A stretch of 47,741 nucleotides of DNA from Candidatus Thermoflexus tengchongensis (GTDB lineage: Bacteria; Chloroflexota; Anaerolineae; Thermoflexales; Thermoflexaceae): contig JAEVEX010000058.1 in NCBI GenBank assembly GCA_016842085.1, positions 1 through 47,741 on the forward strand. Reading direction: 5' to 3'. The position numbers and the translations under genes were made by a program. The notes beneath the pieces were generated by a model. That model was not told where the DNA came from and searched no databases. It worked only from the letters and a program-made list of their open reading frames with translations. Shown here piece after piece: positions 6,026 to 44,977 of the stretch. The first letter of the stretch is position 1; each line of letters starts with the position of its first letter.

Positions 6026-6055
6026 TTGACCGATGGCTTTTTTCAAGGGTATCAT
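6026..6055 (+). promoter_or_regulatory. Sigma70-like promoter for the giant Rhs gene
   Basis: TTGACC at 6026-6031 and TATCAT at 6050-6055 are separated by 18 nt. Transcription would begin near 6062, leaving a leader of about 28 nt that carries GGAAGGAGG ahead of the ATG at 6090. This arrangement also argues against an earlier in-frame start at 6033. Confidence 0.55.
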
Positions 6056-6089
6056 ATTCCCAGAACCCGGAGCGGGAAGGAGGGCCCGG

Positions 6090-14439: not shown

Positions 14440-14450
14440 GGAGGTGAGCG

Positions 14451-14885: not shown

Positions 14886-14906
14886 AGCGACAAGTCACCC
14901 TAGGGC

Positions 14907-15030
14907 ATTGCCTGCAACCGGATCTGCTGGTGCCGGGGCTGGGGAACCCGTAGGACTTTAACAGATACACATATGCCCCCAATAATCCCTGCGCTACACC
15001 GACCCCAGCGGCCACGTTCCGGTCATCCTG
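14907..15030 (+). pseudogene. Degenerate Rhs core end before tip 2
   Basis: The stretch is recognisable as the core end (LGHCLQPDLLVPGLGNP, then NRYTYAPNNP). It carries an in-frame TAG at 14951-14953 and has lost one base near 14990 relative to the other copies, so the reading frame shifts before the PSGH codons. The frame after the shift continues into the tip 2 ORF. It cannot be translated as one protein, so this cassette could be revived only by recombination downstream of the damage or by gene conversion. Confidence 0.7.
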
Positions 15031-15753: not shown

Positions 15754-15765
15754 GGGGATATAATT

Positions 15766-16011
15766 ATGGGAACAAAATCCCAGTTAATTATCGTAGAACC
15801 TTATGATGAGTTTGAAATCATTTATGGAGAAGTTTCTCGAATTCCTTTCCTGTTTCGAGCCACAGATGGCCGTGTTTTCTATTTATGGCCCTACGGATTG
15901 CTTGATCAATTGCTAAATTGGTGGCTAAATGGAATTATGGATGTGATGATAATAGATCATAAAACTAAGAAATGGATAGGTAGGGGAGATTTAAAGAAAA
16001 TTAAAATGTAA
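15766..16011 (+). CDS. Presumed immunity protein of tip 2
   Basis: An 81-aa protein beginning MGTKSQLIIVEPYDEF, with a hydrophobic Trp-rich middle (LLDQLLNWWLNGIM) and a Lys-rich tail. It starts 12 nt after the tip 2 stop. The upstream AAGGGGATA is a fair RBS. The DNA is markedly AT-rich compared with the flanking cores, suggesting separate ancestry. The immunity role rests on position only. Confidence 0.5.
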   Translation: MGTKSQLIIVEPYDEFEIIYGEVSRIPFLFRATDGRVFYLWPYGLLDQLLNWWLNGIMDVMIIDHKTKKWIGRGDLKKIKM

Positions 16012-16021
16012 TGTAAGGTTC

Positions 16022-16939: not shown

Positions 16940-16949
16940 GGAGGCAAAC

Positions 16950-17243
16950 ATGGAGGAAGAGCTCAAATTAAAGATAAAAAAAGCGATTTATGAAATTGAT
17001 AAGCGAATAATTGAGCCAAATTCCCCCAAATTATTGATATATATGCGTGAGTGGTTGCAGCAAATGATGGATGAGCTTGAGAAGCCAACACCCAACTCTC
17101 AGAAGTTACTTGGATTGGCCAGCGGGTTAGGACGGGGAGTTACAGATGATTATGAATTCTCATCAGGGCCGTTAGGAAGCCAATTATTGGAGATTGTTTC
17201 TGATATCGTTCGCATGTATGATCCTCGATTCCAAAATAAGTAA
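16950..17243 (+). CDS. Presumed immunity protein of tip 3
   Basis: A 97-aa, largely helical, charged protein (MEEELKLKIKKAIYEIDKR at the start). AAGGAGG lies 5 nt before the ATG. It starts 10 nt after the toxin stop. The gene is AT-rich. The next Rhs core copy begins only about 5 nt after its TAA. The function is inferred from position in the array. Confidence 0.52.
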   Translation: MEEELKLKIKKAIYEIDKRIIEPNSPKLLIYMREWLQQMMDELEKPTPNSQKLLGLASGLGRGVTDDYEFSSGPLGSQLLEIVSDIVRMYDPRFQNK

Positions 17244-17248
17244 TTTAT

Positions 17249-18139
17249 ATCTACGATCCCATCCTGGGCCGCTTCCTGCAACCCGACCCCATTGTGCCCG
17301 AGCCCGGCAATCCGCAGGCGCTCAACCGGTATGCCTATGTCTACCACAACCCCCTGCGCTATACCGATCCCAGCGGCCACTGCCCCTGGTGCGTGATCAT
17401 CGGATTTGGGGCCCTGATCGGCGCGGGGGTGAGCTACGGCGTTCAGGTGGCCGCGAACATCAGCCAGAACGGCCTCACCGTCCAGGCCTTCACGAATGTC
17501 AACTGGGCCGTCGTGGGGGCTGGAGCTGTGGCCGGGGCGGTGGGAGGTGCGACGTTTGGTTTGGGCACCGCGGTGTTCGGGACCGGGGCGGTGGGCACCG
17601 TGGCCGCTGGGGCTGTCAGCGGGGCCGCGGCCGGACAGGCGGCCCGGGCGACCGAAAACGTCCTCAGCGGACGAGCGATCGGGGAAGGCCTGGGAGATCC
17701 AGGAGATCTCCTGCGGGACGCAGCAATCGGCGGGGCGCTGGCCGGCATCGGATATGGGATGGGGCGGCTGGCATCGCCGGCAGCGGCGGAGGCGGCCGGA
17801 AGCCTGGAACCCCCGATGCTGCGAGCGGGACGCCTGGCCCACCAGCGGTCAGGAGTCAGATATCTGGAGGGGATTCCCCCGGAGCAGCGGCCCTTCGTGG
17901 ATATCGATCAAACCTTCGTGGACCTGACCGGCCGGCGCTTCCGCCCCGATGTCGTCAACCACGTCACCGGCGAGGTGGTGGAATTCAAACCCCAAAGCTG
18001 GTTAAAAGATGCGAAATTAAAAGCTAAAGCGGAAAACCAGGCAAAGAGTTATGCAGCTCGCTTGAACGCGTTATATGGGGACTGGCGCCGGTTGGAGGGG
18101 CTGCCGGAATACTGGTGGCGGGTGGAGTATTACCGCTGA
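17249..18139 (+). CDS. Orphan Rhs tip 4 with REase-like nuclease toxin
   Basis: The core restarts late, at IYDPILGRFLQPDPIVPEP, and runs through [19 protein letters not shown]. The pretoxin (NGLTVQAFTNVNWA, AGAVGGATFGLG, ATENVLSGRAIGEGLGDP) is homologous to tip 2. The toxin begins near MLRAGRLAHQRSGVRYL. It has FVDIDQTFVDLTG and then FRPDVVNHVTGEVVEFKP, a strand-turn-strand with Asp and Glu-x-Lys spacing expected of a PD-(D/E)XK nuclease, followed by a Lys/Ala-rich helix. A GTG at 17294 is the first formal start, without a clear RBS. It is probably a donor cassette. Confidence 0.7.
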   Translation: MYDPILGRFLQPDPIVPEPGNPQALNRYAYVYHNPLRYTDPSGHCPWCVIIGFGALIGAGVSYGVQVAANISQNGLTVQAFTNVNWAVVGAGAVAGAVGGATFGLGTAVFGTGAVGTVAAGAVSGAAAGQAARATENVLSGRAIGEGLGDPGDLLRDAAIGGALAGIGYGMGRLASPAAAEAAGSLEPPMLRAGRLAHQRSGVRYLEGIPPEQRPFVDIDQTFVDLTGRRFRPDVVNHVTGEVVEFKPQSWLKDAKLKAKAENQAKSYAARLNALYGDWRRLEGLPEYWWRVEYYR

Positions 18140-18151
18140 GGAGGCGAAGGA

Positions 18152-19072
18152 ATGAACGAGATCCGGGCGGTAGGAATGGTGATCTACACCTACGAGAGGC
18201 TGGAGCAGCGACTGGATCCCCTATGGGACTGGCTGCATCACGTGGAACAGTGGGCCGGCCGATCTTATGCGGAATTCAACTTCGCTTCCCAGGCCAGGGA
18301 GTCGCTACGAGTCTGGAAAGCCACCTCCCAGAATCTGGAGAAACTCTACCAGCGATTGCAAACAGAGCAACCATGGTCTGAAGTCCTCTTCGGATGGCCA
18401 AGAGGAGCGTTGAGGGATGAGACTATTTTAAAGCAAGGCTTACTCGTTGCTATCAAATCCCGTCCTCAACCGGAGCGGGGGATGGAAAGCTATCGCACCC
18501 CCTCCTATGTTTATCTGCAAGCTCATCCAGATGTGATCCAAGCAAGCACAGGAGGCGTGGAGGGATTTGTGAGGCTGGGGATGGCCGCCTGGGAGATCGC
18601 GGAAGGCGTATACGGCTTCATCGATGTGGAAACCGGCATCCCCCTCCAGGATGATATTTTTCGCAACGCCATCCATCTCTTTGACAGCACCGTGCCCCCC
18701 GAATATCACCGGGAGTTCCGGGCGTGGCAGGAGCTGATGCCCAAACTGGACAAGCGGGCCTGGAAGGCCTTCTGGGGCAACTTCCTGGGAGCGGAACATC
18801 TGCGCCAGCTGGGCGGTATCCAGGAATTGCGGCGCGCCGATCCCCTTTACCAGCTGCGGCCGGAATACCTGGAGCAGGCCTACCAGCGGGGGAAAGAGAT
18901 CCTCCGCGCCAGTAAGAGCTATGTCGGCTGGTATGAGCTGGCCGGAGGCGGGGTGCTGTTGACCCTTTCCGCTTCGCCCCTGGAGGGGTTGGAAAAGGAG
19001 GTCCAGGAACGGCGCGAGCGGTTGCAAGCGGTGCTGGCGCCCATCGCCCTCTCGGTGACACCAGAGGAATAA
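18152..19072 (+). CDS. Presumed immunity protein of tip 4 (FWxNFxG family)
   Basis: A 306-aa soluble protein, large for an immunity gene. It starts MNEIRAVGMVIYTYERLEQ, with GAGGAGG about 9 nt upstream, 12 nt after the toxin stop. The C-terminal half has EGVYGFIDVETGIPL, KAFWGNFLGAEHLRQLGG and GGGVLLTLSASPLEG. These align with the tip 7 immunity gene ([38 protein letters not shown]). The two are therefore one family serving two different REase-like toxins. I do not know its published name. Confidence 0.6.
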   Translation: MNEIRAVGMVIYTYERLEQRLDPLWDWLHHVEQWAGRSYAEFNFASQARESLRVWKATSQNLEKLYQRLQTEQPWSEVLFGWPRGALRDETILKQGLLVAIKSRPQPERGMESYRTPSYVYLQAHPDVIQASTGGVEGFVRLGMAAWEIAEGVYGFIDVETGIPLQDDIFRNAIHLFDSTVPPEYHREFRAWQELMPKLDKRAWKAFWGNFLGAEHLRQLGGIQELRRADPLYQLRPEYLEQAYQRGKEILRASKSYVGWYELAGGGVLLTLSASPLEGLEKEVQERRERLQAVLAPIALSVTPEE

Positions 19073-19094
19073 GCGCCCAGGGATCGTTGCCTTC

Positions 19095-19994
19095 TTCCCC
19101 ACCGACCGCCGCTTCACCGGCCAGCGGTGGGAAGCTTCCCTGGGACTCTACGATTATCGAGCGCGGTTCTATGACCCCGCCCTGGGCCGCTTCCTCCAGC
19201 CCGATCCCCTGGTCCCGGAGCCGGGGAACCCCCAGGCCCTCAACCGGTATGCCTATGTCTACAACAACCCCCTGCGCTACACCGACCCCAGCGGCCACTG
19301 GCTGGAGACCGTCTGGGACATCGCCAACATCATCTGGGATATCTACGAAATCCGCAAGGACCCCGGCAATGGGTGGAACTGGGGTGCGCTGGTGGTGGAC
19401 GTGGGGGCGGCGATCTTGCCGTTTGTGCCCGGCGGTGTCGGCGCCGTGGTGCACGGCGGCAAGGCAGCCCGGTCGGCCGTGGAAGCCGCCCGCCACGCCG
19501 ATGAGGTGGTGGATGCAGCCCGGGTGGTCGCGGAGGCAGCCACCCACGCCGATGAGGCTGTAGATGCGCTACGGGCAGCCGAACGCCTATCCCAGGCGGG
19601 GATTAGCCTGGAGCGGTTCCGCAGCGTCGGACGGGAAAGCATCCCTCGCGTCCTGGAGGCATTCGGCGATGCGATCCGACCGATGGGTGACATCCCGGAG
19701 GCATTCCGAGGTCGGCGAGTGACAACCCTGGGGCGGACGTGGGATATTGAGGCAGCAAAAGAGCTGGGCGGCTTTCGGGTGCTGGATGATCCCAACTGGA
19801 CAATCGAGCGCAACTTCGAGTGGCTGAAGGAGGCAATTGAAAATGGGGATGTGTTCTACCTCGCCTCTCCTGTGACGGAAGCGAACTTATGGAATCCTAA
19901 AAGAGGAGACGTCACGGTCTATTTGCGTGAACTTGACATGCTATTGCAAGCAGGATATCGGCGGATAGGCGATTACTTGATTCCACCCCAATAG
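19095..19994 (+). CDS. Orphan Rhs tip 5 with toxin of unknown activity
   Basis: The core restarts at FPTDRRFTGQRWEASLGLYDY about 20 nt after the tip 4 immunity stop and runs to [18 protein letters not shown]. The pretoxin differs from the other tips (DVGAAILPFVPGGVGAVVHG, then Ala/Asp-rich helices). The terminal domain has VTTLGRTWDIEAAKELGG, then ENGDVFYLASPVTEANLW, then VTVYLRELDMLLQAGYRR. I recall FYLASPVT...LRELxxLxxxGY as a recurrent uncharacterised polymorphic-toxin ending, but its reaction is unknown to me. There is no plausible start codon with an RBS near the 5' end. Confidence 0.68.
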   Translation, partial: FPTDRRFTGQRWEASLGLYDYRARFYDPALGRFLQPDPLVPEPGNPQALNRYAYVYNNPLRYTDPSGHWLETVWDIANIIWDIYEIRKDPGNGWNWGALVVDVGAAILPFVPGGVGAVVHGGKAARSAVEAARHADEVVDAARVVAEAATHADEAVDALRAAERLSQAGISLERFRSVGRESIPRVLEAFGDAIRPMGDIPEAFRGRRVTTLGRTWDIEAAKELGGFRVLDDPNWTIERNFEWLKEAIENGDVFYLASPVTEANLWNPKRGDVTVYLRELDMLLQAGYRRIGDYLIPPQ

Positions 19995-20007
19995 GAGAGA
20001 AGAGTAT

Positions 20008-20562
20008 ATGCCAGAAATGATAACAATACACGAAGCTGCCAAAATTATTAATCAGATTCCCGCTAATCATTATTGGGAAAAGAAATTACCATCTAAAGAG
20101 GATAATCTCATCTGCAAAATCTGCAGCGCCTATCAGAAAGCCTCTTCAGGTGAGCAACAAAAATTCAGGAAAGATTTGGAGACAAATGGATGGCAAGTGC
20201 TATGGTCATTCCTGAGGCGGGCAGCGATGTTAGGGGCGCGTGAGAGAATAACCCAATGGATTGTGTGTGGACTCATCAGCTTGACGATTTGTGCAGAGGA
20301 TCCTGAAACGGAACCCTATGATGTGCTCATAGATCTGGCAATTCTCTATCACAGCGCGTGCCAAGTGGGAGACCCCCGTCGGATCTTTGAAGCCGGTGTG
20401 CAACATGTGGAAGACGAGCGCATCCGACAGTTGATTCTGGGCTTTCTCGACCGCGATCCTCGAGATCAACGTCCAGAAGCAATGGGATGGGAAATCATTC
20501 AAGGACCGAGCGGCCTCATCTACCGGTTTGACGATCAGCCTATCCCGGAAGGTCATCTCTGA
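20008..20562 (+). CDS. Presumed immunity protein of tip 5
   Basis: A 184-aa soluble, helical protein starting MPEMITIHEAAKIINQ, with a HEAT/armadillo-like feel (AVLYHSACQ-type helices, DERIRQLILGFL). TAGGAGAGAAG precedes the ATG. It starts 13 nt after the toxin stop. The 5' half is AT-rich. No family is recognised; the role is inferred from position. Confidence 0.55.
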   Translation: MPEMITIHEAAKIINQIPANHYWEKKLPSKEDNLICKICSAYQKASSGEQQKFRKDLETNGWQVLWSFLRRAAMLGARERITQWIVCGLISLTICAEDPETEPYDVLIDLAILYHSACQVGDPRRIFEAGVQHVEDERIRQLILGFLDRDPRDQRPEAMGWEIIQGPSGLIYRFDDQPIPEGHL

Positions 20563-20610
20563 TTCACAGATCCTGGCACTTTAACAACTCAAGCGCGCCG
20601 TTGCGGCTCC

Positions 20611-21453
20611 TTCCCCACCGACCGTCGCTTCACCGGCCAGCGGTGGGAGGCGTCGCTGGGGCTCTACGACTACCGGGCCCGCTACTACGACCCCGCCCTG
20701 GGCCGCTTCCTCCAGCCCGACCCGCTGATTCCGCAGCTGGGGGATGTCAGGGCGTGGAACCGGTATGCCTACGTTTACAACAACCCGCTGCGCTACCTGG
20801 ATGACGGAGGGCATCTCCCGATCGTCCCCCTTCTGGTGGCCGGGGCGATCATCGCCCTCAAGGTCATCGACTACGGCTGGACGGCGTGGGATGCCTCCCA
20901 GAGCCTCCGGGTGCTGCAGGATCCCAATGCCTCGCAGGCCGCGAAGGCGGAAGCCGCCGCCAACCTGGCCCTGATCGCCGCCACCGAGGCCGCTGAGCCC
21001 GATGACCTGCTCCCGGTCGCCCTGCCCCTGGATGACCTGGCCCGGAAGGGGATCTTGAAGGCAGGTCGAGAGGTGGCCGAGGAAGCCGCCGAGCGGGCGG
21101 GGAAGGAGGCGGGCGAGGAGGCTGGTCGCCTCATCCGCCACCATATCGCCACCAACAAGAACTGGATCCGAGACCCGAGATGGTCGGAGCGATTCCACAA
21201 ACTCTTTGCCCGGGGTGGGATGACCCTGGAGGATGCGGCGAACATCGTGGAATTGCCGGCTGAGCTGCACAAGGGTCCTCATTCGCAGGCATATCATCAG
21301 TGGGTGTACCGGCGGCTGCAGGAGGCGATTGCGGGGTTAGATGATCCAACGAAGGTTCGTGCCCGGTTGGAAGCGGAATTGCGAGCCATTGCGGAGGAAC
21401 TGAAGGCCCACCCGGAATACTTGCGGAATCCGCCGATGGGAGGAGGGCGGTAA
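20611..21453 (+). CDS. Orphan Rhs tip 6 with AHH-type HNH nuclease toxin
   Basis: The core restarts at FPTDRRFTGQRWEASLGLYDY. It has a variant hinge (PLIPQLGDVRAWNRYAYVY) and YLDDGGHLPIVPLL, then the pretoxin almost identical to tip 1. The toxin begins after AGRLIRHHIATNKNWI. It continues FARGGMTLEDAANIVELP and HKGPHSQAYHQWVYRRL. The double His, the second HKGPH and the YHxxV are the hallmarks of the AHH family, an HNH/EndoVII-type nuclease. It would cleave nucleic acid in a target cell. Upstream starts lack an RBS. Its stop TAA overlaps the ATG of the next gene (TAATG). Confidence 0.78.
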   Translation, partial: FPTDRRFTGQRWEASLGLYDYRARYYDPALGRFLQPDPLIPQLGDVRAWNRYAYVYNNPLRYLDDGGHLPIVPLLVAGAIIALKVIDYGWTAWDASQSLRVLQDPNASQAAKAEAAANLALIAATEAAEPDDLLPVALPLDDLARKGILKAGREVAEEAAERAGKEAGEEAGRLIRHHIATNKNWIRDPRWSERFHKLFARGGMTLEDAANIVELPAELHKGPHSQAYHQWVYRRLQEAIAGLDDPTKVRARLEAELRAIAEELKAHPEYLRNPPMGGGR

Positions 21454-22058
21454 TGCGCTACTATGAGTGGACAGCGAACTCAGAGGGCAATTGCGTAGTT
21501 CGGGACTTCAAAGTTCGGGGATGGGAAGATGAGTTCAAGTTGCTGTGGAGGCTGGAGGAGGGGCGTCCACTGAGGGAAAGCGAATGGGACGCGGAGGCTG
21601 TGGCTTATTGGGCGGAGGATGCTCCTTTAACGGATTTGCCTTTCACCGTCCCTGATTTCGTGCTCCTTTCTCCTCGTCTGAAAGAACTTCTGGAGAGTTT
21701 GGGACTGGGCCCTGAGGTTCAGTTTCTGCCCATTCGGGTGATCGGGGAGAAGAGCGGACGGGAGGTGGGTGTTTACTATGTGGCTAACTTCCTGCGGCGC
21801 ATCCCTTGCTTGGATCTGGAACATTCCATATATGGCCGATATGGGGATCATCCGGAGGATTTCCGGGTTTTTCCTGAGAAGATTGGACAGATCCGCCATG
21901 TCTTGAAAGCAGTGTTGCGGCAAGAGGCAATTGGCGATGCCTGGTTGTTTCGGGTGGATGAGTGGGAGTATATCGTGGTGATCCATGAGGAGGTGAAGCG
22001 GGCGATGGAGGAGGCTGAGATCACCGGGTGCTGGTATCAAGAGTTAGAGGTGGTGTAG
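21453..22058 (+). CDS. Presumed immunity protein of tip 6 (Imm11/DUF1629-like)
   Basis: A 201-aa soluble protein starting MRYYEWTANSEGNC. Its middle has FTVPDFVLLSPRLKELLESL, then VQFLPIRVIGEKSG and IPCLDLEHSIYGR. This order (last strand, SxxLKxLLE, PVxV, then LDxxxS) resembles Imm11/DUF1629 or the related Imm43 families. From memory these often sit beside AHH toxins. The ATG overlaps the toxin stop (TAATG), the tightest coupling in the array, and GGAGGAGGG sits in the toxin tail as RBS. Confidence 0.62.
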   Translation: MRYYEWTANSEGNCVVRDFKVRGWEDEFKLLWRLEEGRPLRESEWDAEAVAYWAEDAPLTDLPFTVPDFVLLSPRLKELLESLGLGPEVQFLPIRVIGEKSGREVGVYYVANFLRRIPCLDLEHSIYGRYGDHPEDFRVFPEKIGQIRHVLKAVLRQEAIGDAWLFRVDEWEYIVVIHEEVKRAMEEAEITGCWYQELEVV

Positions 22059-22083
22059 GTTCAGCCCTTTAACAACCAAATAC

Positions 22084-22950
22084 CGCCGCTTCACCGGCCA
22101 GCGGTGGGAGGGGACGCTGGGCCTTTATGACTACCAGGCGCGCTTCTATGACCCGACCCTGGGCCGCTTCCTGCAACCGGACCCCATCGTGCCCGAGCCT
22201 GGCAACCCGCAGGCGCTCAACCGCTACGCCTACGTCTACAACAACCCGCTGCGCTACACCGACCCCAGCGGGCACGTCGTCCAGCTTCCCTGCCCCTGGT
22301 GCGATCGCCCCTGGATCTCCACCCAGGGCTGGCCAGGCCTCGCCGTCGGTCTGGCCAAAGGCGCCTGCGCCGTCCTGGGCTGTCAGATCGACCCCGTCAC
22401 TGGCCTCCTCTCGGGACCTTCCTATGCAGAATGGCTCCAGGCTCAGACCCTGGGCCTGGGAGGGCTGGCAAGCCCGGTCCAGACCCCCAGTGGCTGGCTG
22501 AAGGCCAGTGGAGTCGAAGTGGCCGCCGAGCTTCGAGCCCTGGGCGCACGAGGCGTGCCGGGCGTGGAGCGCCTGGCGGCGATGATTGAAGGAGGCCTGC
22601 GCGGGGCTGTCTTCCAGGGCCAGCGAGCCCTCCATTACGCCGAACAACTCCTGGGCGTCGAGGTGGAAATCGCATTTCCCAAAGGCCTCGGGCGTGTGGA
22701 CCTCCTCCTCACCGGCAACCGCATCGTCGAAACCAAAGCCTGGGAAAATTGGGAAAAACTGGGGCCTGAAATTCGGAGAAGCATCCTCAGGCAATTTGAG
22801 GAGCAGATGACGAAATACTTGAGTGATGCACGTTATACTGTGCTGGTCGAGTTCAAGGGGAGGATCCCAGAAGAAGCGCTCCAGGTGCTTCAGAAGCTGA
22901 CTCAGGACCCCCATTACACAGGGCGTCTGAACTGGACCACGGTTCCATAG
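22084..22950 (+). CDS. Orphan Rhs tip 7 with REase-like nuclease toxin
   Basis: The core restarts at RRFTGQRWEGTLGLYDYQ, runs through [17 protein letters not shown] and [19 protein letters not shown], then a linker with CPWC and a Leu/Gly-rich stretch. The toxin is at the C-terminus: HYAEQLLGVEVEIAFPKG, LGRVDLLLTGNRIVETKA, a helix, then YTVLVEFKGRIPEEAL. Asp in RVDLL and Glu-Thr-Lys in VETKA fit a PD-(D/E)XK nuclease core. The first formal start is a GTG at 22189 inside the core, so expression is doubtful. Confidence 0.72.
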   Translation, partial: RRFTGQRWEGTLGLYDYQARFYDPTLGRFLQPDPIVPEPGNPQALNRYAYVYNNPLRYTDPSGHVVQLPCPWCDRPWISTQGWPGLAVGLAKGACAVLGCQIDPVTGLLSGPSYAEWLQAQTLGLGGLASPVQTPSGWLKASGVEVAAELRALGARGVPGVERLAAMIEGGLRGAVFQGQRALHYAEQLLGVEVEIAFPKGLGRVDLLLTGNRIVETKAWENWEKLGPEIRRSILRQFEEQMTKYLSDARYTVLVEFKGRIPEEALQVLQKLTQDPHYTGRLNWTTVP

Positions 22951-22966
22951 CTGTCGGAGGAAATCA

Positions 22967-23743
22967 ATGCTCCCGCGAGATTGGGTGGAAGCCCTCGAGC
23001 TGAATCTAAGCTTTTGCGAGCGCCTGGATCCTGAACAAGGCGCTACTCAGCTGATTCGCCTGATTGATCAGCATGGAGGCAAGTTCTTGAAATTGAATCG
23101 CCGCGAAGTGGAACCTGAGCCCCTGGCAGATATGGTCAATCTCTTCGTTCCCATTGAGCACCATCTGCTCCAGCCTGATGCCATGACAGATCCCGAAAGG
23201 GGAAAAGGACAGGCTTCGTTAAGCTTCGTGCCGGAAAGCCTGTACGTGAGCATCCGCCAGAACGTTTCTTTCCCGGATCTCCAGCGGGTGGATCCAGTGG
23301 CTCTGGGCCTGCTGACCCTCGGCCGGCTCCTCTACCCGGATCTGCGCCCCATATATGGATGGATCGATGAGCCCAGTGGGAATATCCCAGAGACCTCAGA
23401 AATCGCCTCCACCCAGCTCCGATATATCTTCTGGGCCAACTTCTGGGGACCAGCGTATGTGGAGCGGTATGGGCGGGATTTTCTGCGAGGGGCGCCAGGC
23501 TGGCGGGTGGAGGAGCTCGAAGACGGGGGGATCCTGTATGTGACCACCGCCAGCTATGTGGAGTGGTGGCTGATGACCCGCCTGGACCATCTGGATCCGG
23601 AGCGCCCGCGGCTGCGGCGGTGGCTGCTCGAACGGCGCGGGCAGCTGGCCGTGCAGCGGGCCGCCATCCTGGGATATTTCCGGGCGCGCATTCCGGAAAT
23701 CGAGCTGTATTGGGCAAAGGTCGATCTGGATTGGCTTCCCTGA
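22967..23743 (+). CDS. Presumed immunity protein of tip 7 (FWxNFxG family)
   Basis: A 258-aa soluble protein starting [16 protein letters not shown]. The ATG is preceded by CGGAGGAAATCA and lies 16 nt after the toxin stop. The C-terminal half ([47 protein letters not shown]) is related to the tip 4 immunity gene. Its TGA at 23741-23743 is also the first three bases of the following core scar (TGATCCC), so the scar may have trimmed the original C-terminus. Confidence 0.6.
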
Positions 23744-23855
23744 TCCCACCCCGGTCCCGGAGCCGGGGAACCCGCAGGCGTTGAACCGGTATGCCTATGT
23801 TTACAACAACCCGCTGCGCTACACCGACCCCAGCGGGCACTGGCTGGAGGAGCGC
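23742..23855 (+). pseudogene. Empty Rhs core scar closing the array
   Basis: A short core copy without a toxin. It reads [32 protein letters not shown], then about 200 bp of unrelated sequence. It has no RRFTGQRW part, pretoxin or immunity gene. It is open in frame with the MBL-fold gene downstream, but this is probably chance. It marks the 3' end of the array and could serve as a recombination landing site. Confidence 0.7.
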
Positions 23856-24001
23856 AAAAAGCCCCTGGCCCATCTCGGCGTGGCTCCATCGGGCATCCCC
23901 AGATTCCAGGGAACAGCCGGCTGCGCAAGGGAGGAGCTCGCCGCTGGTCAACGCCAGGGGTCCACCGCGGCAAGCCCACCTGTGATACGATTAATCCGCG
24001 C

Positions 24002-36086: not shown

Positions 36087-36134
36087 CGCCGCTCCAGATC
36101 CCCCGGGGAATTCCTTCCCCACCCGTCGCCTGCT

Positions 36135-36164
36135 ATTCTACGTTTTCCTAAACTTCTTTGTCAA
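36135..36164 (-). promoter_or_regulatory. hemA: Strong sigma70-like promoter of the haem operon
   Basis: On the minus strand 36159-36164 reads TTGACA, a perfect -35. An 18-nt spacer follows, then TAGAAT at 36135-36140 (5 of 6 matches to TATAAT). The region is AT-rich, in contrast to its surroundings. Transcription would start near 36128, just before the hemA start at 36086. No second comparable promoter was seen within the ten-gene run, which supports a single transcript. Confidence 0.7.
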
Positions 36165-36308
36165 GATTGCTAAGAATTTTTTGGGCTCCGTGATCCAGAT
36201 TACGGGGATTCGCGGAGGGGGTCTTTTCGCGTCTGGAGATCCGGAGGGAAATCCGGATGGGACCTCTGGCCCCCTGTGCCCTGAAGGTCTACGGGAGGGA
36301 AGCTGTGG
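36165..36308. other. Intergenic region upstream of the second Rhs gene
   Basis: About 144 bp between the haem promoter and the second Rhs gene. It holds a 7-bp inverted repeat (ATCCGGA at 36239-36245, TCCGGAT at 36252-36258). I found no convincing plus-strand promoter. Short overlapping frames here have no recognisable product. Confidence 0.5.
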
Positions 36309-39300
36309 ATGGCGAGACCTCCGGCGGCTTCTGCGGCTCCGGGAAGGACGGCTCCTGCTCCCTATCCACCCGAGCAGCTTTTACCCTCTCCCCTGCCAGA
36401 ACTTCCCGCTGCCCGTGCTCCCCTGCCGGTAGACCTACCATCCCCCTCCATGCTCTCCGTTCCCCTTCCTCAACCGGAAGTGCCCAACCCGCGCCCGGTT
36501 GTGCCAGTCCAGGAAGCCCGGGCCAGTGCCCTGGGTGTCCCCCGATCGGAGGTTCCCCTGGCCCCGCACACCCATCCGTCCCGGAGTCCCTCCGGGAAGG
36601 AGCCGGCGGAGCCTGCCCCACGACAGACTCCGCCGCGGGTTTTCGCTCCATCCCCCGAAGAGGGGAGAAGCGGGCCTGAGAAGTCCACCCAGGCCCTGCC
36701 GGTCTCCCCAGCCTCCGGCTCCTCCGCTTCCTTCCCCTTCCGCCTCTTCCTCCCCCTGGTGGTCCGGAACCATGAGCCTGGTCTGATCTCCTATCGGGGT
36801 GGGACCTACACCTCGCCGGACGGACGGGTGACGGTGGTTTTCCCGCCCGGCGCGGTGGGTCAGGCGGTGCGGGTCCACTACCGAGAGGCACGCCATCCGA
36901 TGCCGGAGGGCTTCGTGGCCCTGGGCTTTTTCTCTCTGGAAGCCGAAGAGGCGGCCAGCGGCAGACCCGTGACCACTTTCGGAGCACCGCTGGAGATCCG
37001 GGTGCGGTATTCGGATGCGGGTCTCCCCTTCGGGTTGGAGGGTCGCCTTCACCTCTACTACGAGGCCGGGGATGGACGCTGGGAGCGATTGCCCTCTGTG
37101 GCCGACCCGGAGCGGAACGAAGTGGTGGCCTGGACCACCCATATGAGCGATTTCGGACTGCTGGCCGAGACCGGAGATAACCCCTGCGACCAGGCCGTGA
37201 ATTTGGCCCCGGCCATCCCTTCCGGCACGGCCCCCTCCCTGCCGTATACCTTCTTCAGCGGCGTGACCCGTTTGGATTATTACTCCGGCACCCTGATTTA
37301 CCTCTCCAGCAATGAGGCAGGCACCGGCGCCATATTCACCCGGGACCACGCTCGGATCACGGCCTCCGGCCCCGGCGGTGGAACGTGGGAGCACGCTTTC
37401 AGCGGCTCTTCCATCCCGCCCCAGGAGATCAGCCGCGATCTTTTCCCCAACGCCCCCTTCAGCGCCACGTATTCGATCCAGACCCTCTTATGGACCGAGG
37501 CCTATACCCTGTATGCCTCCTCCGCCTATTACCTGACGATGAAAGATGTGACCCCGCCGGAGATCCGGGACGCCACGATCTGGCCGGACGGGGAAGGGGG
37601 CTATTACCTGGAGGTGACGGCGGTGGACAACTGTGCGGTGGCCTCGGTGGATCTGGTCGCCAGCAGTAGCAGCGGCGGAGGCGCCAGCGCCGGAATGGGG
37701 CGGGTTGGCCCGGACCGCTACGGGGCTGCGGTCCGCCTCCCTCGCATCGGATTCAACACGTTCGTCATCATCGCCACGGACGCAGCCGGCAACTCCAGCA
37801 TCTGGACCGCCCGGCTGCCTTCCACCTACTCCGGCGGCTTTGGCTTCACCTGCCTCAAGGGCCCATGCGGCGGTCACCAGGGCACCGAAGGGGACCCCAT
37901 CAACACCGCCTCCGGCAACTTCGTCACCCGCACCCTGGACCTGCGGTTGCCGGGCATCGGGAACACCGAAATCCGGGTGGAGCGGACCTACAACGCCCAG
38001 GCCGTCCCGCCGAAAGGGGATTTCACCCTCATCGGGATGGACCCCGGCCCCTTCGGCCCCGGCTGGTCCTGGCCCTTTGACTTCCGCCTGGAGTTCGTGG
38101 ATAACCTCCTGCTGCGCGGCGTCAAAGTCCATTATCCCGATGGCCACACGGCCCTCTTCGAGCGGGAACCTGACGGGGCCTTCACGCCCAGGACCCCCGG
38201 CAACACCGACACCCTTCGGGCCATCCCCGGCGGCTACGTCCTGAAGCAGAAGGACCTCACCGAATACCGCTTTGACGCCGGAGGCCGCCTTGTGGAGGTC
38301 CGTGACCCCAACGGCAACACCCAGACCCTGACCTACGACGGGGCCGGGCGGCTGGTCCGGGTGGAGAACAGCGCCGGGCGGTGGATCGAGATCGCCTACA
38401 CCCCTGAAGGGCTCATCCGGGAGATCACCGCCCCGGAGGGGGTCCGCCTCCAGTATGCATACACCGATGGCCTCCTCACCGCCTTCACCGACGCGCGGGG
38501 CCAGACCTGGCGCTACACCTACAACGCCTTCGGCTGGCTCACCGCCATCCTCAGCCCGAAGGGGCACCCCATCCTGCGGCTGCGGTATGGCGAGAGCCGG
38601 GACGACCCCACCTTCGGCCGGGTCGTGGAGCAGATCGAGGGCGCCACCGCCCGCCGCACCTTCGCCTACGACGACCCAGCCCACCGGCGCACCATCATCG
38701 ACGCCTACGGCCACACCACCGTCCACCAGTATGACGATGCCTACCGCCTCATCCGGGTCACCGACCCCCTGGGATACCGCGAAGCATACGGCTACGACAA
38801 CCAGGACCGGCGGATCTCCTTCAAGGACAAGGAGGGGCGGGAGTGGCACTATTTCTATGACGATAGGGGCAACCTCATCCGGGAAGAAGGCCCCCTGGGG
38901 TGGGTGCGCGAGTGGGAATACAATGATCTGGACCGCCTGACGCTGGAGCGGGACCCGGCCGGCCGCGAGACCCGCTACGGCTACGATGAGCGGGGCAACC
39001 TCACCGTCATCACCAGCGCCCTGGGCTTCACCCGCACCTTCGCTTACGACCCCCGCGGCCTCCCGATCCGCATCACGGACTTTAACGGCAACGTCATCAC
39101 CCACACCTACGACGCCGCGGGGAACCTCATCGCCGCTGAAAACGGTGTGGGCGCCGTCACCCGCTACGCCTACGACGGCCTGGGCCGGACAACAGGGATG
39201 ACCACCCCGCAGGGCACCGTCTTCACCTACACCTACGACGGGGGAAGCGCCCTCCTCACCGGGATCTTCGGCCCCCTGGGCTATCGGGAAACCTACGAAT

Positions 39301-42300
39301 ACGACCCCAACGGGAACCTGGTCCGCCGCGTGGATCCCAACGGCCACGAAACCCGTTATGAATACGACAGCTCGGATCGACTGGTGGCCGAGATCAACGC
39401 CTTAGGTTTCACCACCGTTTACACCTACGGCCTGATGGGCGAACGGGTGGCGATGCAGGACCCCGAAGGACGGGTGACCACCTACGAGTACGACGCCCTC
39501 CTGCGCCTGACGGCCGTCCACGCCCCCGAAGGGGCCACCACCCGCTACGAATACGACGGCGTGGGGAACCTGGTCGCCGCGACCGATCCCGAAGGCCGGG
39601 TGACCCGCTACATCTACAACGCCCTGGACCGCCTGGAGCAGCGCATCCAGAATTACATCCCCGGCGGCCCCCAGAACGCCGATGTGAACGTCACCACCCG
39701 CTACGAATATGACCCGGCGGGGAACCTGACGAAGGTCATTGACCCCAACGGCACCGTCACCTGCTACGAGTATGACAACCAGAACCGGCTGATCACGGAG
39801 ATCCGCAACTGCCGTCCCGGCGAGCCGGCAGGGCCGGACGTGAACGTCACCACCCGCTACGAATACGACCCCAACGGCAACCTGATCCGCCGGGTGAACC
39901 CCAGGGGCTACGCCACCACCTACGCCTACGACGCCGCCAACCGCCTCATCGCCGTCACCGATGCCCTCTCCCAGACCACCACCTATGCCTACGACCCGGA
40001 GGGGAACCTCATCGCCGTCACCGACCCGGCCGGGATGACCATCCGCTACGAATACGACCTTCTGAACCGCCGCACCGCCGAGATCCGCAACTTCCGGGAA
40101 GGCGAGCCGCCCTCCGCCGACGTCAACGTCACCACCCGCTACGCGTACGATCCGGCCGGTAACCTCGTGAAGGTCACCGATCCCAACGGCGTCCCCACCT
40201 GCTACGAATACGACGCCCTCAACCGCCGCACGGCCGAGATCCGCAACTGCCGGCCGGGCGAGCCGGCGGGGCCGGACGTCAACGTCACCACCCGCTACGA
40301 ATACGACCGGGTGGGGAACCTCGTCCGGCTCACCGACCCCAACGGCCACGCCACCCGCTTCGTCTACGACGGCCTGAACCGGCTGGTGGCCCGCACGGAC
40401 CCGGAGGGGCACACGATCACCTTCGCCTACGACCGGGTGGGGAACCTCCTCCGGCAGGTGGACGCCCGGGGGTACGCCACCGCCTGGGCCTATGACGCCC
40501 TGAACCGGCCCATCACCGTCACCGACGCCCTTTCGGGCACCACGGTCTTCCGCTACGACCCGGCCGGCAACCTCCTGGCCCGGACCGACCCCAACGGCCA
40601 CACCACCCACTATGCCTATGACGGTCTCTACCGCCGGACGGCCGTGACCGACGCGGAGGGCTACGTCACCCGCTACGAGTACGACGCAGGCGGCAACCGC
40701 ACCGCCGTGGTGGACGCCAACGGGAACCGCACCGAGTTCACCTACGATCCCCTGGACCGCCTTGAGACGATAACCAACGCGGAGGGCGAAACCACCCGCT
40801 ACCTCTACGACCCCGTGGGCAACCAGACCGACCTCATCGAGCCCGACGGGGTGGTGACCCACTACGAATACGACGGGGTGTACCGGCTGAGGCGGGTCCT
40901 GCTCAACTACCGCCCCGGCTTCCGGCCCGACCACCAGACCAACGTGGCCTACGAGTACACCTACTACCCCAACGGCAACCTGGTGGAGGTGAAACTGCCG
41001 CCCAACGCGGCCGCTTCCGATCGCCGGTTAAGATACGAGTACGACGCCCTCAACCGGCTGGTGGCCGAGACCGACCCCTCAGGCAACACCTGGCGCTACG
41101 CCTACGATCCGGCCGGCAACCGCATCCGCCGGGCCGACCCCAACGGGCACGTCACGGTCTACACCTACAACGCCGACCACCTCCTGATCCGCATCGCCTA
41201 TGACGACGGAACCGCCGTGGCGTTCGCTTACGACGAGAACCACAACCGGACGGTGATGACCGATACCCTCGGGGTGACCCGGTGGGTTTACGACCCCCTC
41301 AACCGGGTGGTGGCGATCACCGACAGCCTGGGGCGGGCGCTGGGCTACGCCTACGACGCGGTGGGCAACCGGATCGCCATCACCTACCCGGTCACGGGGA
41401 CGGTGACCTATACCTATGACGCCAACAACCGGCTGCGGGGCGTCACCGACCCCTACGGGCACACCACCCGCTACGAGCGGGACGGGGTGGGGAACCTCAT
41501 CCGCCAGCTCAACCCCAACGGCACCGTCACGGAAGCCGCATACGACCGGGCGAACCGTCTGGTGAGCCTTTCCACCCGCCGTCCAGACGGCGCCATCATC
41601 GCCGCCTTCGCCTATGAGGTGAACGAAGTAGGCCTGCGGACGGGGATGACCGCCACCTACGGCTGGCGGAACCCGCCGGTGGTGGTGGAGCGCTACACCT
41701 ACGACCCCCTGCGCCGCCTTACCGGTGTTACGGACAGCGAGGGCTTCCGGGAGATCTACGAATACGATGCGGCGGGCAACCGGGTGCGCTGGTGGGCCAA
41801 TGACGACCGGACCACCCCGCGGCCCCGGGACGGCTTTGAGGTCACCTACACCTACGACGCTGCGGACCGGCTGCTGGAGGCGGTGCGGGTGAGCGGCCCA
41901 CCGGAGGGGACCCAGCGGTTCGTCTACACCTACGACGCCAACGGCAACCGGGTGAACCTCAACTGGCCGGGTCCGCCGGGGCCGAACACCCAGGGGCTGG
42001 ACTATACTTACGACCGGGAGAACCGGCTCATCGCCGCCCAGGCCTACCAGACCAACCACCGGGGCCACCGCATCGATCGGGAGATCACCCGCCTGTTCTA
42101 CGACGGCCTGGGCCGGCGGCTGGTGAAGGAATACGATCCCAACGATGGCGGGGGTGGGGTCAAGCGGACGGAATACGTGCTGGACGGCCTGGACCCGGTG
42201 GCCGAATACGAGATATGGAACGGGCAATGGCGGGACTACTACCGGGGCGGGGTGGAGGCCTTCAGCCCCACCCCGATGCTGCTGGCGATGCGGCGCTTCC

Positions 42301-43472
42301 CGGAGGGCACCGAGGGCCAGACTTACTGGTATCATCTGGACGGGCGGGGGAGCGTGGCGGGCCTCACCAAGCACCAGGGCCAGTCCACCCACAACTACCG
42401 CTACGATGCCTATGGGCAACTGCTCCCGGCCCAGGGCAACTGGACCGATCCGCACAACCCCTACACCTTCCTGGGCAAGGAGTGGGACGAGCACTTAGCG
42501 CTTTACGAATTCGGCGTGCGGCTGTATGACCCATGGGCGGGGGTGTGGCTCACGCGGGAGCCTTTGCCGGGGGATGCCTGGTGGCCCCGCACGTGGCACC
42601 GGTATCAGTATACCTATGCCAATCCCATCAGTTACTACGACCCGTATGGACTGCAGGTGCCGCCGCCAGTCACCCCCGTGCCGGCGCCCACCCCACCGCC
42701 CTATACCCCGGTGCCCTGGCCCACACCCACCCCGGGGCCCTCGCCCACGCCTACGGCTACGCCCGCGCCGCAGCCGGTGCCTACCCCGCCGCTCGCTTCA
42801 ACGCCCATCCAGGCCCCAACCCCCACCGGCGCTTCCATCTGCCTCATCAGCCCAGCCGACCTTTACACCCTGGGCTATGGGGGCTATCAGGCCTGGCGTG
42901 CTGGGCAAATGCTCCGAGGTGGGCTGAGGTTTGTTCCGGGGAGCGCCTATCCGGGCCAGATCATCGTATACGGCTCCCGGGAAGCCCGTCGGGCGGCGGG
43001 GCTTTCTCCCTTTTTCATCCACGCCCGCCGGACCCATCCGGGCCTGGTTCGCTATCTTTCCCCGGGGGCAGCGTTTTCCCGGGAGCTGCTCTCCGGATCC
43101 ACGGGGGTGGGGGTGGCGCTGAGCGTGGGGTGGGATGTATACGAGTATGGGTGGGGGAGCAAGCGGGAGGTGGGGCTGGGGAGCACCGAGTTCGCCGCCG
43201 CCGTCACGGTGGATGTCGGAACAACGGCGTTGCTCCCGGCATTGGGAGCGGCGGCAGGGGGACTCATATGCGGGCCGGGAGCTCCCGCATGTGTGGTTGG
43301 AGGCGCGGCTTTAGGAAACTTCTTAGTCGTGTGGTTCAGCGCATCGGGGCTTCGAGAACGGAGCGTGGAGGCAGTGAGCGGTTTTTATGAAACCATCCTT
43401 CAGCCACCCCCATCGGCCCCGGAATCCTGGGAGGAAATCTGGCCGGATTGGCCGAACATCCCCGCTCCCTGA
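36309..43472 (+). CDS. Second giant Rhs/YD-repeat polymorphic toxin with hydrophobic tip
   Basis: A 2387-aa protein. It opens with a Pro-rich region (to about 150), then FRLFLPLVVRNH. A ZU5/autoproteolytic-like region follows (TYTSPDGRVTVVFPPGAVG). A DUF6531-type Rhs N-terminal domain lies near 525-600 (DPINTASGNFVTRTLDLRLP). YD repeats run from about 660 to 2000. The core end has YRYDAYGQLLPAQGNW, LYEFGVRLYDPWAGVWLTRE and SYYDPYGLQ. A Pro/Thr spacer follows at about 2116-2175. The last 210 residues are Gly/Ala-rich and hydrophobic (VGVALSVGWDVYEYGW, ALGAAAGGLICGPGAPACVV), suggesting a membrane-acting toxin. No N-terminal signal peptide is visible. The ATG at 36309 has GGGAGGG upstream, and the next upstream in-frame codon is a stop at 36282-36284. 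A membrane immunity gene follows by 11 nt. Confidence 0.88.
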   Translation: MARPPAASAAPGRTAPAPYPPEQLLPSPLPELPAARAPLPVDLPSPSMLSVPLPQPEVPNPRPVVPVQEARASALGVPRSEVPLAPHTHPSRSPSGKEPAEPAPRQTPPRVFAPSPEEGRSGPEKSTQALPVSPASGSSASFPFRLFLPLVVRNHEPGLISYRGGTYTSPDGRVTVVFPPGAVGQAVRVHYREARHPMPEGFVALGFFSLEAEEAASGRPVTTFGAPLEIRVRYSDAGLPFGLEGRLHLYYEAGDGRWERLPSVADPERNEVVAWTTHMSDFGLLAETGDNPCDQAVNLAPAIPSGTAPSLPYTFFSGVTRLDYYSGTLIYLSSNEAGTGAIFTRDHARITASGPGGGTWEHAFSGSSIPPQEISRDLFPNAPFSATYSIQTLLWTEAYTLYASSAYYLTMKDVTPPEIRDATIWPDGEGGYYLEVTAVDNCAVASVDLVASSSSGGGASAGMGRVGPDRYGAAVRLPRIGFNTFVIIATDAAGNSSIWTARLPSTYSGGFGFTCLKGPCGGHQGTEGDPINTASGNFVTRTLDLRLPGIGNTEIRVERTYNAQAVPPKGDFTLIGMDPGPFGPGWSWPFDFRLEFVDNLLLRGVKVHYPDGHTALFEREPDGAFTPRTPGNTDTLRAIPGGYVLKQKDLTEYRFDAGGRLVEVRDPNGNTQTLTYDGAGRLVRVENSAGRWIEIAYTPEGLIREITAPEGVRLQYAYTDGLLTAFTDARGQTWRYTYNAFGWLTAILSPKGHPILRLRYGESRDDPTFGRVVEQIEGATARRTFAYDDPAHRRTIIDAYGHTTVHQYDDAYRLIRVTDPLGYREAYGYDNQDRRISFKDKEGREWHYFYDDRGNLIREEGPLGWVREWEYNDLDRLTLERDPAGRETRYGYDERGNLTVITSALGFTRTFAYDPRGLPIRITDFNGNVITHTYDAAGNLIAAENGVGAVTRYAYDGLGRTTGMTTPQGTVFTYTYDGGSALLTGIFGPLGYRETYEYDPNGNLVRRVDPNGHETRYEYDSSDRLVAEINALGFTTVYTYGLMGERVAMQDPEGRVTTYEYDALLRLTAVHAPEGATTRYEYDGVGNLVAATDPEGRVTRYIYNALDRLEQRIQNYIPGGPQNADVNVTTRYEYDPAGNLTKVIDPNGTVTCYEYDNQNRLITEIRNCRPGEPAGPDVNVTTRYEYDPNGNLIRRVNPRGYATTYAYDAANRLIAVTDALSQTTTYAYDPEGNLIAVTDPAGMTIRYEYDLLNRRTAEIRNFREGEPPSADVNVTTRYAYDPAGNLVKVTDPNGVPTCYEYDALNRRTAEIRNCRPGEPAGPDVNVTTRYEYDRVGNLVRLTDPNGHATRFVYDGLNRLVARTDPEGHTITFAYDRVGNLLRQVDARGYATAWAYDALNRPITVTDALSGTTVFRYDPAGNLLARTDPNGHTTHYAYDGLYRRTAVTDAEGYVTRYEYDAGGNRTAVVDANGNRTEFTYDPLDRLETITNAEGETTRYLYDPVGNQTDLIEPDGVVTHYEYDGVYRLRRVLLNYRPGFRPDHQTNVAYEYTYYPNGNLVEVKLPPNAAASDRRLRYEYDALNRLVAETDPSGNTWRYAYDPAGNRIRRADPNGHVTVYTYNADHLLIRIAYDDGTAVAFAYDENHNRTVMTDTLGVTRWVYDPLNRVVAITDSLGRALGYAYDAVGNRIAITYPVTGTVTYTYDANNRLRGVTDPYGHTTRYERDGVGNLIRQLNPNGTVTEAAYDRANRLVSLSTRRPDGAIIAAFAYEVNEVGLRTGMTATYGWRNPPVVVERYTYDPLRRLTGVTDSEGFREIYEYDAAGNRVRWWANDDRTTPRPRDGFEVTYTYDAADRLLEAVRVSGPPEGTQRFVYTYDANGNRVNLNWPGPPGPNTQGLDYTYDRENRLIAAQAYQTNHRGHRIDREITRLFYDGLGRRLVKEYDPNDGGGGVKRTEYVLDGLDPVAEYEIWNGQWRDYYRGGVEAFSPTPMLLAMRRFPEGTEGQTYWYHLDGRGSVAGLTKHQGQSTHNYRYDAYGQLLPAQGNWTDPHNPYTFLGKEWDEHLALYEFGVRLYDPWAGVWLTREPLPGDAWWPRTWHRYQYTYANPISYYDPYGLQVPPPVTPVPAPTPPPYTPVPWPTPTPGPSPTPTATPAPQPVPTPPLASTPIQAPTPTGASICLISPADLYTLGYGGYQAWRAGQMLRGGLRFVPGSAYPGQIIVYGSREARRAAGLSPFFIHARRTHPGLVRYLSPGAAFSRELLSGSTGVGVALSVGWDVYEYGWGSKREVGLGSTEFAAAVTVDVGTTALLPALGAAAGGLICGPGAPACVVGGAALGNFLVVWFSASGLRERSVEAVSGFYETILQPPPSAPESWEEIWPDWPNIPAP
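39641..40518 (+). repeat. Tandem duplication of a 438-bp unit inside the second Rhs gene
   Basis: The block beginning RIQNYIPGGPQNADVNVTTR at about 39641 recurs as EIRNFREGEPPSADVNVTTR at about 40080. The internal EIRNCRPGEPAGPDVNVTTR at about 39798 recurs at about 40236. Both offsets are 438-439 bp, or 146 codons. DNA identity is high, especially in the AACGTCACCACCCGCTACG segment. The duplication adds YD units without breaking the frame. Confidence 0.7.
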
Positions 43473-43483
43473 GGGAGGTCTGG

Positions 43484-44263
43484 ATGCGCCAGCGGGCGAA
43501 GCGGCGACACAGCCCTCTGACGGATCAGGAAGTCCTCCAGCGTGTCACCCAGAAGGCGGGCTGGTATTTCTATAACAACCTCCAGGAGGCCCGAAGGGAT
43601 TTCTGGAAGAGGGCGGCATTGGGCGCCTTCTTCGCTGGCCCCTTCGCCAGCTTGGGAGGAGTAATGGGGTTCATCGTTCTGGATCAGGCGCGCTTCATCC
43701 CCCTGCTTCTGGGACTGAACGCCGGCATTTGCTTCCTGTTCCCCATAGGGTTCAGCCTCCATTCCGCGCGGTATGAACAATTCCCCCTGGAGTATCAGGC
43801 GCGATGGAAAGATGATGTGAGCTTCTGGAACTACCTTCTCCTTGGATGGATCGGTTTGTTGGGCTCAGTGACGCTATTGTTTGCTACTATAATCATTTTT
43901 CTGAAGAATGTGATGAATGATTATGTGGGGGTGGGGGTATTGGTTGGGGTCTATCTGGCGGCTGGGGTTGTTCTTTGGAGGAGGCGGATGATCTTTCTTC
44001 GCGCCATTGCTGAACCGGAAGCCTATCCCTGGGTGCGCCTTTACCTGGGCTTCTCTGTAGGCACAGCGATTCTTTCTGCTGCCCTGCTCCGCATTCTCCT
44101 GGATATCATCGGAGGGACCATCAGCCCGGCTTTCTCGTCTATGATCGTGGTAGCCCTCGGGTTAACTGTCTCGCTCCTCCTGCTGGGGCTATCCTTATTA
44201 GCCTGGATCCTGGCGTATCTTTACTACCAGAAATGGCGGGGGGCGGAGGAGTTGAGGGTGTGA
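43484..44263 (+). CDS. Polytopic membrane protein, presumed immunity for the second Rhs toxin
   Basis: A 259-aa protein with about six hydrophobic segments (for example AALGAFFAGPFASLGGVMGFIV, LLGWIGLLGSVTLLFATIII and VVALGLTVSLLLLGLSLLAW). The N-terminus is basic and cytosolic. GGGAGG lies about 5 nt before the ATG at 43484; a TTG start 12 codons upstream would overlap the Rhs stop. It begins 11 nt after the toxin gene, the spacing of an immunity gene. A polytopic immunity fits a membrane-inserting toxin, as seen for other membrane-targeting polymorphic toxins. The role is inferred. Confidence 0.68.
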   Translation: MRQRAKRRHSPLTDQEVLQRVTQKAGWYFYNNLQEARRDFWKRAALGAFFAGPFASLGGVMGFIVLDQARFIPLLLGLNAGICFLFPIGFSLHSARYEQFPLEYQARWKDDVSFWNYLLLGWIGLLGSVTLLFATIIIFLKNVMNDYVGVGVLVGVYLAAGVVLWRRRMIFLRAIAEPEAYPWVRLYLGFSVGTAILSAALLRILLDIIGGTISPAFSSMIVVALGLTVSLLLLGLSLLAWILAYLYYQKWRGAEELRV

Positions 44264-44367: not shown

Positions 44368-44730
44368 TTCTTCCCCGAGGGCGCGGAAGGCCAGACTTAC
44401 GGGTATCATCTGGACGGGCGGGGCAGCATCGCGAGGCTCACCAAACACCTGGGGCAGAGCACCCCCAACTACCGCTACGACGCCTACGGCCAGGTGCTCC
44501 CGGCCCAGGGCAACTGGACCGACCCGCACAACCACTACACCTTCCTGGGCAAGGAGTGGGATGAGTACCTGGGCCTCTACGAGTTCGGCGTGCGGCTGTA
44601 TGACCCCTGGGCGGGGGTATGGCTCACGCGGGAGCCGTTGCCAGGGGATGCCTGACGGCCCAGGACGTGGCACCGGTATGGGTATGCGTTTGCCAGCCCC
44701 ATCAGCTACTACGATGCGCATGGGCTGCAG
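44368..44730 (+). pseudogene. Decayed duplicate of the second Rhs core end
   Basis: The DNA closely matches 42294-42660 of the second Rhs gene (YHLDGRGSIARLTKH, YRYDAYGQVLPAQGNW, LYEFGVRLYDPWAGVWLTRE). A TGG codon has become TGA at 44653-44655, just before the RPRTWHRYGYAFASP part. The end motif reads SYYDAHGLQ, with Ala-His in place of Pro-Tyr. The frame continues with a short, possibly toxin-derived tail (SLEWVIECAKAVWRGRLD) and drifts into the adenine deaminase leader, so the toxin is truncated and no immunity gene remains. It is a displaced tip of the same kind as those in the first array. Confidence 0.75.
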
Positions 44731-44885
44731 CCATCGTTGGAGTGGGTGATCGAGTGCGCGAAGGCGGTGTGGCGTGGGCGATTGGATTTCTCCCAGGCGG
44801 GATGTGCCCCTTCCGGTTACAGTCCCCAGGCCGCCAACCTGCAAGCGTGCTGGATTGTGGCCCGCTGGTTCTTCTCCTTCAGGAT

Positions 44886-44913
44886 TTGCTCATTCCTTAT
44901 CTTCGACTATAAT
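44886..44913 (+). promoter_or_regulatory. Possible promoter for adenine deaminase
   Basis: TATAAT at 44908-44913 is perfect. A weak TTGCTC at 44886-44891 lies 16 nt upstream. Transcription would start near 44920, giving a leader of about 70 nt. A run of T follows the -10. The -35 is poor, so the call rests on the -10 and on the position between a pseudogene and an intact gene. Confidence 0.4.
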
Positions 44914-44950
44914 TTTTTCAAATACGTTCACCCCCTCAGGACATCCGACA

Positions 44951-44977
44951 TTCCGGAATTCCACTCTCAATCCGGAA
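44951..44977 (+). promoter_or_regulatory. Leader hairpin touching the adenine deaminase ribosome site
   Basis: TTCCGGA at 44951-44957 and TCCGGAA at 44971-44977 are exact inverted copies with a 13-nt loop. The right arm overlaps the Shine-Dalgarno AAGGAGG (44976-44982) by two bases. Such a hairpin could limit ribosome access or protect the 5' end. No ligand is implied. Confidence 0.35.

Follow-up and report, generated by a model that had tools for sequence, protein, structure and literature searches.

What does the second Rhs protein encoded on this contig carry at its C-terminus, and is the membrane protein gene that follows it the matching immunity gene? A sequence-only reading of the window (the whole analysed stretch of 47,741 nucleotides from Candidatus Thermoflexus tengchongensis) had proposed that positions 42657-44263, which begin directly after the core-ending YYDPYGLQ, encode a membrane-acting toxin tip and a polytopic immunity protein, and that this pair differs from the nuclease-type tips of the first Rhs array. 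It suggested structure prediction of the tip and topology prediction of the neighbouring protein as checks. To our knowledge, few Rhs-borne membrane toxins have been characterised. Here we report that the tip and its neighbour form a real and intact cassette of a known kind, and that both the tip family and the immunity are undescribed. In our view, an Rhs cage probably ends here in a mobile toxin-immunity cassette (positions 42813-44263), composed of a membrane-depolarising tip and a membrane immunity protein. The features on which the analysis is based are as follows.

36309-43472, forward strand: Rhs2, the full-length Rhs/YD-repeat protein that carries the tip, a single intact ORF of 2387 aa
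42402-42653, forward strand: Rhs-associated core domain (TIGR03696), residues 2032-2115 of Rhs2, end of the putative cage
42621-42656, forward strand: core-ending motif, sequence NPISYYDPYGLQ
42657-42812, forward strand: proline-rich linker of 52 residues, 78% GC, absent from the HR08 copy described below
42813-43472, forward strand: tip (polymorphic toxin domain) of about 211 aa, 85% aa identity to the HR08 copy
42903-43121, forward strand: conserved N-terminal block of the tip, GSxYPxQIxVYGSxEAxxxAGLxPxxxH, common to WXG100-fused type VII substrates
43188-43352, forward strand: hydrophobic hairpin candidate, two segments of about 20-25 residues around an Ala-Pro turn (GPGAP)
43473-43478, forward strand: GGGAGG ribosome-binding site, abutting the Rhs2 stop and 5 nt before the ATG of the next gene, conserved in HR08
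43484-44263, forward strand: candidate immunity protein of 259 aa with six predicted membrane spans
44370-44727, forward strand: orphan piece of an Rhs core end from a displaced cassette, interrupted by an in-frame TGA (44653-44655)
44728-44960, forward strand: probable remnant of the displaced former tip, of low GC

Rhs2 fits the layout of Rhs polymorphic toxins, in which a YD-repeat core leads through an NPxxxxDPxGL boundary into a variable tip. It begins with a Pro-rich region, followed by the repeats, and matches Pfam RHS_repeat at E 4.6e-215, with 35 RHS repeat stretches scored. By analogy with other Rhs proteins, the core-ending motif NPISYYDPYGLQ is presumably the point of autoproteolysis or the domain boundary. 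No signal peptide was seen by eye at the Rhs2 start or in other upstream frames (window 36100-36500). An N-terminal WXG100 or LXG domain is absent from Rhs2, and no WXG100 match was obtained anywhere in the genome. A displaced orphan tip cassette, typical of Rhs polymorphic toxins, is present downstream of Rhs2, where 44370-44960 is the probable fossil of an earlier tip exchange. The contrast with the first array holds for Rhs1 (window 6033-12269), which combines a signal peptide-like N-terminus with a nuclease tip resembling CDI_toxin_EC869 (E 6.8e-12), but it cannot be extended to the array as a whole, most of whose orphan tips match no family. Several orphan Rhs-core fragments lie after Rhs1 (window 13537-24000), with an Imm11 protein among them (21453-22058, E 2.5e-18).

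The gene downstream of Rhs2 agrees with its earlier description as lying 11 nt away and encoding about six membrane spans. Its ATG at 43484 is 11 nt after the Rhs2 stop (43470-43472), and topology prediction for the 259-aa product, which has a GRAVY of +0.59, yielded six non-overlapping membrane-span windows. The AlphaFold model of this protein also contains six helices, at low confidence (pLDDT 48.8). Searches of Pfam, NCBIfam, PHROGs, PADLOC and PDB returned no family for it, and no other plausible gene lies between it and the orphan Rhs fragment at 44370.

Whether the two genes belong together can be judged from a second genome. A scan of 84,980 species genomes yielded one relative only, on a contig of 3.5 kb from the metagenome-assembled genome Bacterium HR08; both the tip and the neighbour are missing from 8 other genomes of the genus. 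On the HR08 contig, an Rhs core end similar to that of Rhs2 (89% DNA identity) leads into a different tip. Two small hydrophobic ORFs come next, and behind them lies an orphan cassette in which a short piece of Rhs core precedes the tip and the neighbour seen in the window, the neighbour being about 90% identical over its first 134 codons. The alignment between the window and HR08 is gapless from 42810 to 43886, that is, through the tip, the stop, the Shine-Dalgarno (SD) sequence and the start of the neighbour. As the proline-rich linker is absent from the HR08 copy, a recombination boundary is placed at the tip start, where homology begins (42810-42813). The proposed pairing was thus borne out: the second genome has both genes in another Rhs context, with gene order and SD-stop junction preserved, and tip and neighbour co-occur at both places where either is found (2/2). 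Comparison of the window with HR08 gave dN/dS values of 0.24 (tip), 0.15 (neighbour) and 0.19 (core), which indicates that tip and neighbour are both maintained as proteins. Found in HR08 as an orphan cassette and kept under purifying selection, tip and neighbour travel together, as toxin-immunity cassettes do.

The same comparison bears on the idea of a module that has decayed or lost its activity, in which the tip would be a hydrophobic Rhs end devoid of toxicity beside a bystander membrane gene. Such decay would suit the visibly broken state of the adjacent displaced cassette (44370-44960) and a glycine zipper that is weak relative to those of the type VII relatives described below. However, the frames are intact, the tip C-terminus is identical in the two genomes, dN/dS stays at 0.15-0.24 and the SD-stop junction is conserved, and we therefore regard this explanation as very improbable. 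It is important to note that the HR08 neighbour copy stops at about 134-141 residues, close to the contig end (a broken gene or the end of the assembly).

The main Rhs gene of the HR08 contig (L002, 515-1911) is of some interest in its own right. Its tip is also unclassified and is followed by the two hydrophobic ORFs, of 132 and 100 aa with two spans each, which is possibly a second membrane-type toxin/immunity set. An in-frame TAG lies in this Rhs core just ahead of the unclassified tip.

The C-terminal 210 residues of Rhs2 had been described as Gly/Ala-rich and hydrophobic. Compared with the core, they are: the last 211 aa contain 27.5% Gly+Ala (18.7% on average in the core) and have a GRAVY of +0.23, whereas the core averages -0.57 and the best equal-length core window sampled reaches -0.005. 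Strong hydrophobicity, however, covers only about 55 residues, mainly at 43188-43352, while the first ~115 tip residues are not strongly hydrophobic. Both stretches of the candidate hairpin are borderline as membrane spans (KD 1.6-1.75). A strict glycine zipper in its extended form, (G/A/S)xxxGxxxG, was matched once in the tip, compared with about 2.0 matches expected from shuffles, and not at all in the HR08 tip. The suggested structure prediction of the tip was uninformative (AlphaFold pLDDT 29.5); the models of tip and neighbour were each built on two-row alignments and are too poor for a fold search. Plasmid, phage and viral-contig searches returned no relative. A DUF1129 match (E 0.0076) and ankyrin/Pro-rich PDB matches, from searches of both proteins, were treated as compositional.

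Relatives of the tip were found on a different carrier. A two-sequence tip profile, run over 400 genomes of the same phylum, matched the C-terminal regions of proteins that begin with a WXG100 domain: L035 (E 3.8e-9) and, more weakly, L037, L038 and L042. When the L035 tip was in turn used as the query over 400 genomes, the Rhs2 tip was recovered at E 3.3e-8. Another match, L036 (E 4e-6), was rejected; it is a frame that contains a stop and runs antisense to, or overlaps, ordinary metabolic and membrane genes. Since this example shows that E values near 1e-5 can be compositional with the tip as query, the non-hydrophobic half was tested separately. Alone, it scores 35.9 bits (46.9 for HR08) against 8.9 for the best shuffle, and in a set of 3388 real ORF fragments the next hit, a decoy, has an E of 1.7; the hydrophobic half alone is only marginal (16.3 vs 15.5 bits). 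The homology of the tip to WXG100 C-termini is significant, and composition does not explain it. Six other weak matches (L040, L043-L045, L047 and L052) were discarded as ordinary membrane or unrelated genes. For the neighbour, no comparably strong relative was found among the 400 genomes, and its weak matches there (best E 2e-4) are probably due to membrane composition.

The four WXG100-fused relatives share with the Rhs2 tip the N-terminal ~75 residues, which include the conserved block, and the hydrophobic hairpin with its Ala-Pro turn. Residues invariant in the family include the Tyr and Gln of YPxQI, the Pro and His of LxPxxxH and the Ala-Pro of the hairpin turn. In two further relatives, L076 and L091, the match to the profile is confined to the zipper half, which they have kept. 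Extended glycine zippers are above chance in L035, L038, L042, L091 and L076, where the counts for L076 and L091 include Gly-rich linkers. Unlike Rhs2, the relatives L035, L037, L038 and L042 have a WXG100 carrier and, in most cases, strong zippers, and the gene behind them encodes a soluble partner that belongs to no named family.

These partners were examined at six loci. Genes for an FtsK/SpoIIIE ATPase (FtsK/EccC), YukD and FHA proteins adjoin the relatives at both widely read loci (L084 and L085). The gene after the WXG100 relative encodes a protein of 261-293 residues in all six cases read (L084, L085, L086, L087, L076 and L091); the five that were aligned are mutually related, and the L091 partner is similar by eye. 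All six are essentially devoid of membrane spans, and no polytopic gene is adjacent, in contrast to the six-span neighbour of Rhs2. No match was obtained for the four partners tested against Pfam or, as profiles, against PDB. These soluble proteins may be chaperones or soluble antidotes; an assignment as EspG-type chaperones was considered and, with no PDB or Pfam match, is unconfirmed.

Does the tip then act on membranes, as first proposed? Its homology to zipper- or hairpin-ended type VII substrates, together with the lack of a match to any enzyme family, points in this direction, whereas several observations count against it: the zipper is weak and not enriched, the spans are borderline and the model is uninformative. 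Counting against the cassette reading as a whole, the HR08 immunity copy is cut off and the pair occurs in two genomes only. On balance we infer a membrane target. The tip could instead be a toxin with a soluble cytoplasmic action (enzymatic or binding), with the hairpin being merely an entry or translocation element and the neighbour blocking entry rather than a pore. This is conceivable, as conservation within the family is highest in the non-hydrophobic N-terminal block, the Rhs2 copy has a weak zipper motif, and CDI ionophore tips have distinct entry and killing domains (PMC11630599). Nevertheless, we consider it unlikely: the tip has no family in Pfam, NCBIfam, PHROGs or PADLOC, enzymatic or otherwise, and no PDB match by sequence; the invariant residues are mostly Gly, Pro or aromatic and do not form a conserved catalytic-looking set; and L076 and L091 retain the zipper half and match the profile in that half only.

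For the membrane-depolarising cassette that we favour, the following course of events can be envisaged. The Rhs shell would enclose the ~211-aa tip and release it at the target cell. Within the tip, the conserved N-terminal block may serve folding or entry, and the C-terminal hairpin would insert into the target cytoplasmic membrane and collapse its potential. In the producer, the co-translated six-span protein would reside in the cell's own membrane and block toxin coming from outside; if the tip is caged until delivery, a soluble antidote would be unnecessary. A tip that is caged by Rhs and has a six-span protein, but no soluble antidote, encoded beside it fits the logic of a membrane-depolarising toxin with membrane immunity, as in EsxX and Tse5.

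Membrane toxins with a glycine zipper or an Rhs carrier, such as EsxX, TelE and Tse5, depolarise or destabilise membranes (PMC12744356, PMC10434224, PMC9637101). EsxX depolarises membranes; the polytopic ExiC and ExiD protect from outside and the soluble ExiA and ExiB in the cytoplasm, and the authors argue that the Rhs-caged Tse5 requires no cytoplasmic antidote (PMC12744356). Tse5 is a pore-forming Rhs effector of Pseudomonas aeruginosa, against which the membrane protein Tsi5 protects (PMC9637101). In overall layout, Rhs2 resembles Tse5/Tsi5 in having an Rhs cage, a putatively membrane-acting C-terminal domain and an adjacent gene for a membrane protein, in Rhs2 a candidate immunity. It differs in that Tse5 rides on a type VI system, whereas the T6SS sheath gene (VipB/TssC) had no match in the Rhs2 genome (95% complete) or in 8 congeners, and in that Tsi5 has two spans and the Rhs2 neighbour six. 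Likened by description, EsxX/ExiABCD and TelE/TipE (type VIIb LXG) share with Rhs2 a C-terminal domain with hydrophobic stretches, borderline as spans in Rhs2, and, in ExiC and ExiD, a six-span membrane protein, which in Rhs2 is a candidate immunity protein; Rhs2 departs from EsxX and TelE in its Rhs rather than LXG carrier, in a strict glycine zipper that is not enriched and in having no adjacent soluble antidote gene. CDI ionophore toxins also combine membrane-depolarising tips, a property presumed for Rhs2, with polymorphic membrane immunity, and have a CdiA carrier, a predicted five-helix bundle and two-span immunity proteins of their own (PMC11630599).

TelE calls for caution here, as a six-span protein encoded alongside a toxin need not be the antidote when protection is tested by cytoplasmic expression: in E. 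coli its own gave no protection, while a soluble DUF5085 protein did (PMC10434224). In the case of EsxX, the polytopic proteins counter the extracellular toxin only (PMC12744356). The Rhs2 pair could accordingly be real while its polytopic gene is not, or not only, an immunity gene, acting as cargo or as an export or insertion helper with the true antidote encoded elsewhere. We give this little credence, since the stretch up to the orphan Rhs fragment at 44370 offers no other candidate and the Rhs cage would make a cytoplasmic antidote unnecessary, as argued for Tse5 (PMC12744356).

The most interesting aspect of the Rhs2 pair is that its tip is common to Rhs and type VII carriers while the partner genes differ. 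We tentatively suggest, as a possibility rather than an expectation, that, within one phylum, a single membrane-toxin family is shared between Rhs cages and the WXG100 carriers of type VII systems, and that the immunity class switches with the carrier: the Rhs-caged form would be met by a six-span membrane protein alone, and the uncaged, WXG100-borne form by a soluble, chaperone-like antidote. With the same family found caged and uncaged next to different partner genes, the idea that the carrier decides the antidote is directly testable. If true, the carrier switch would amount to a natural experiment that shows which compartment is the first to be endangered by a depolarising toxin. The Rhs2 pair in any case adds an undescribed tip and immunity family that is linked to type VII substrates. 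Another Rhs protein of the same phylum (L078) has a glycine-rich hydrophobic tip of about 80 residues directly after its core.
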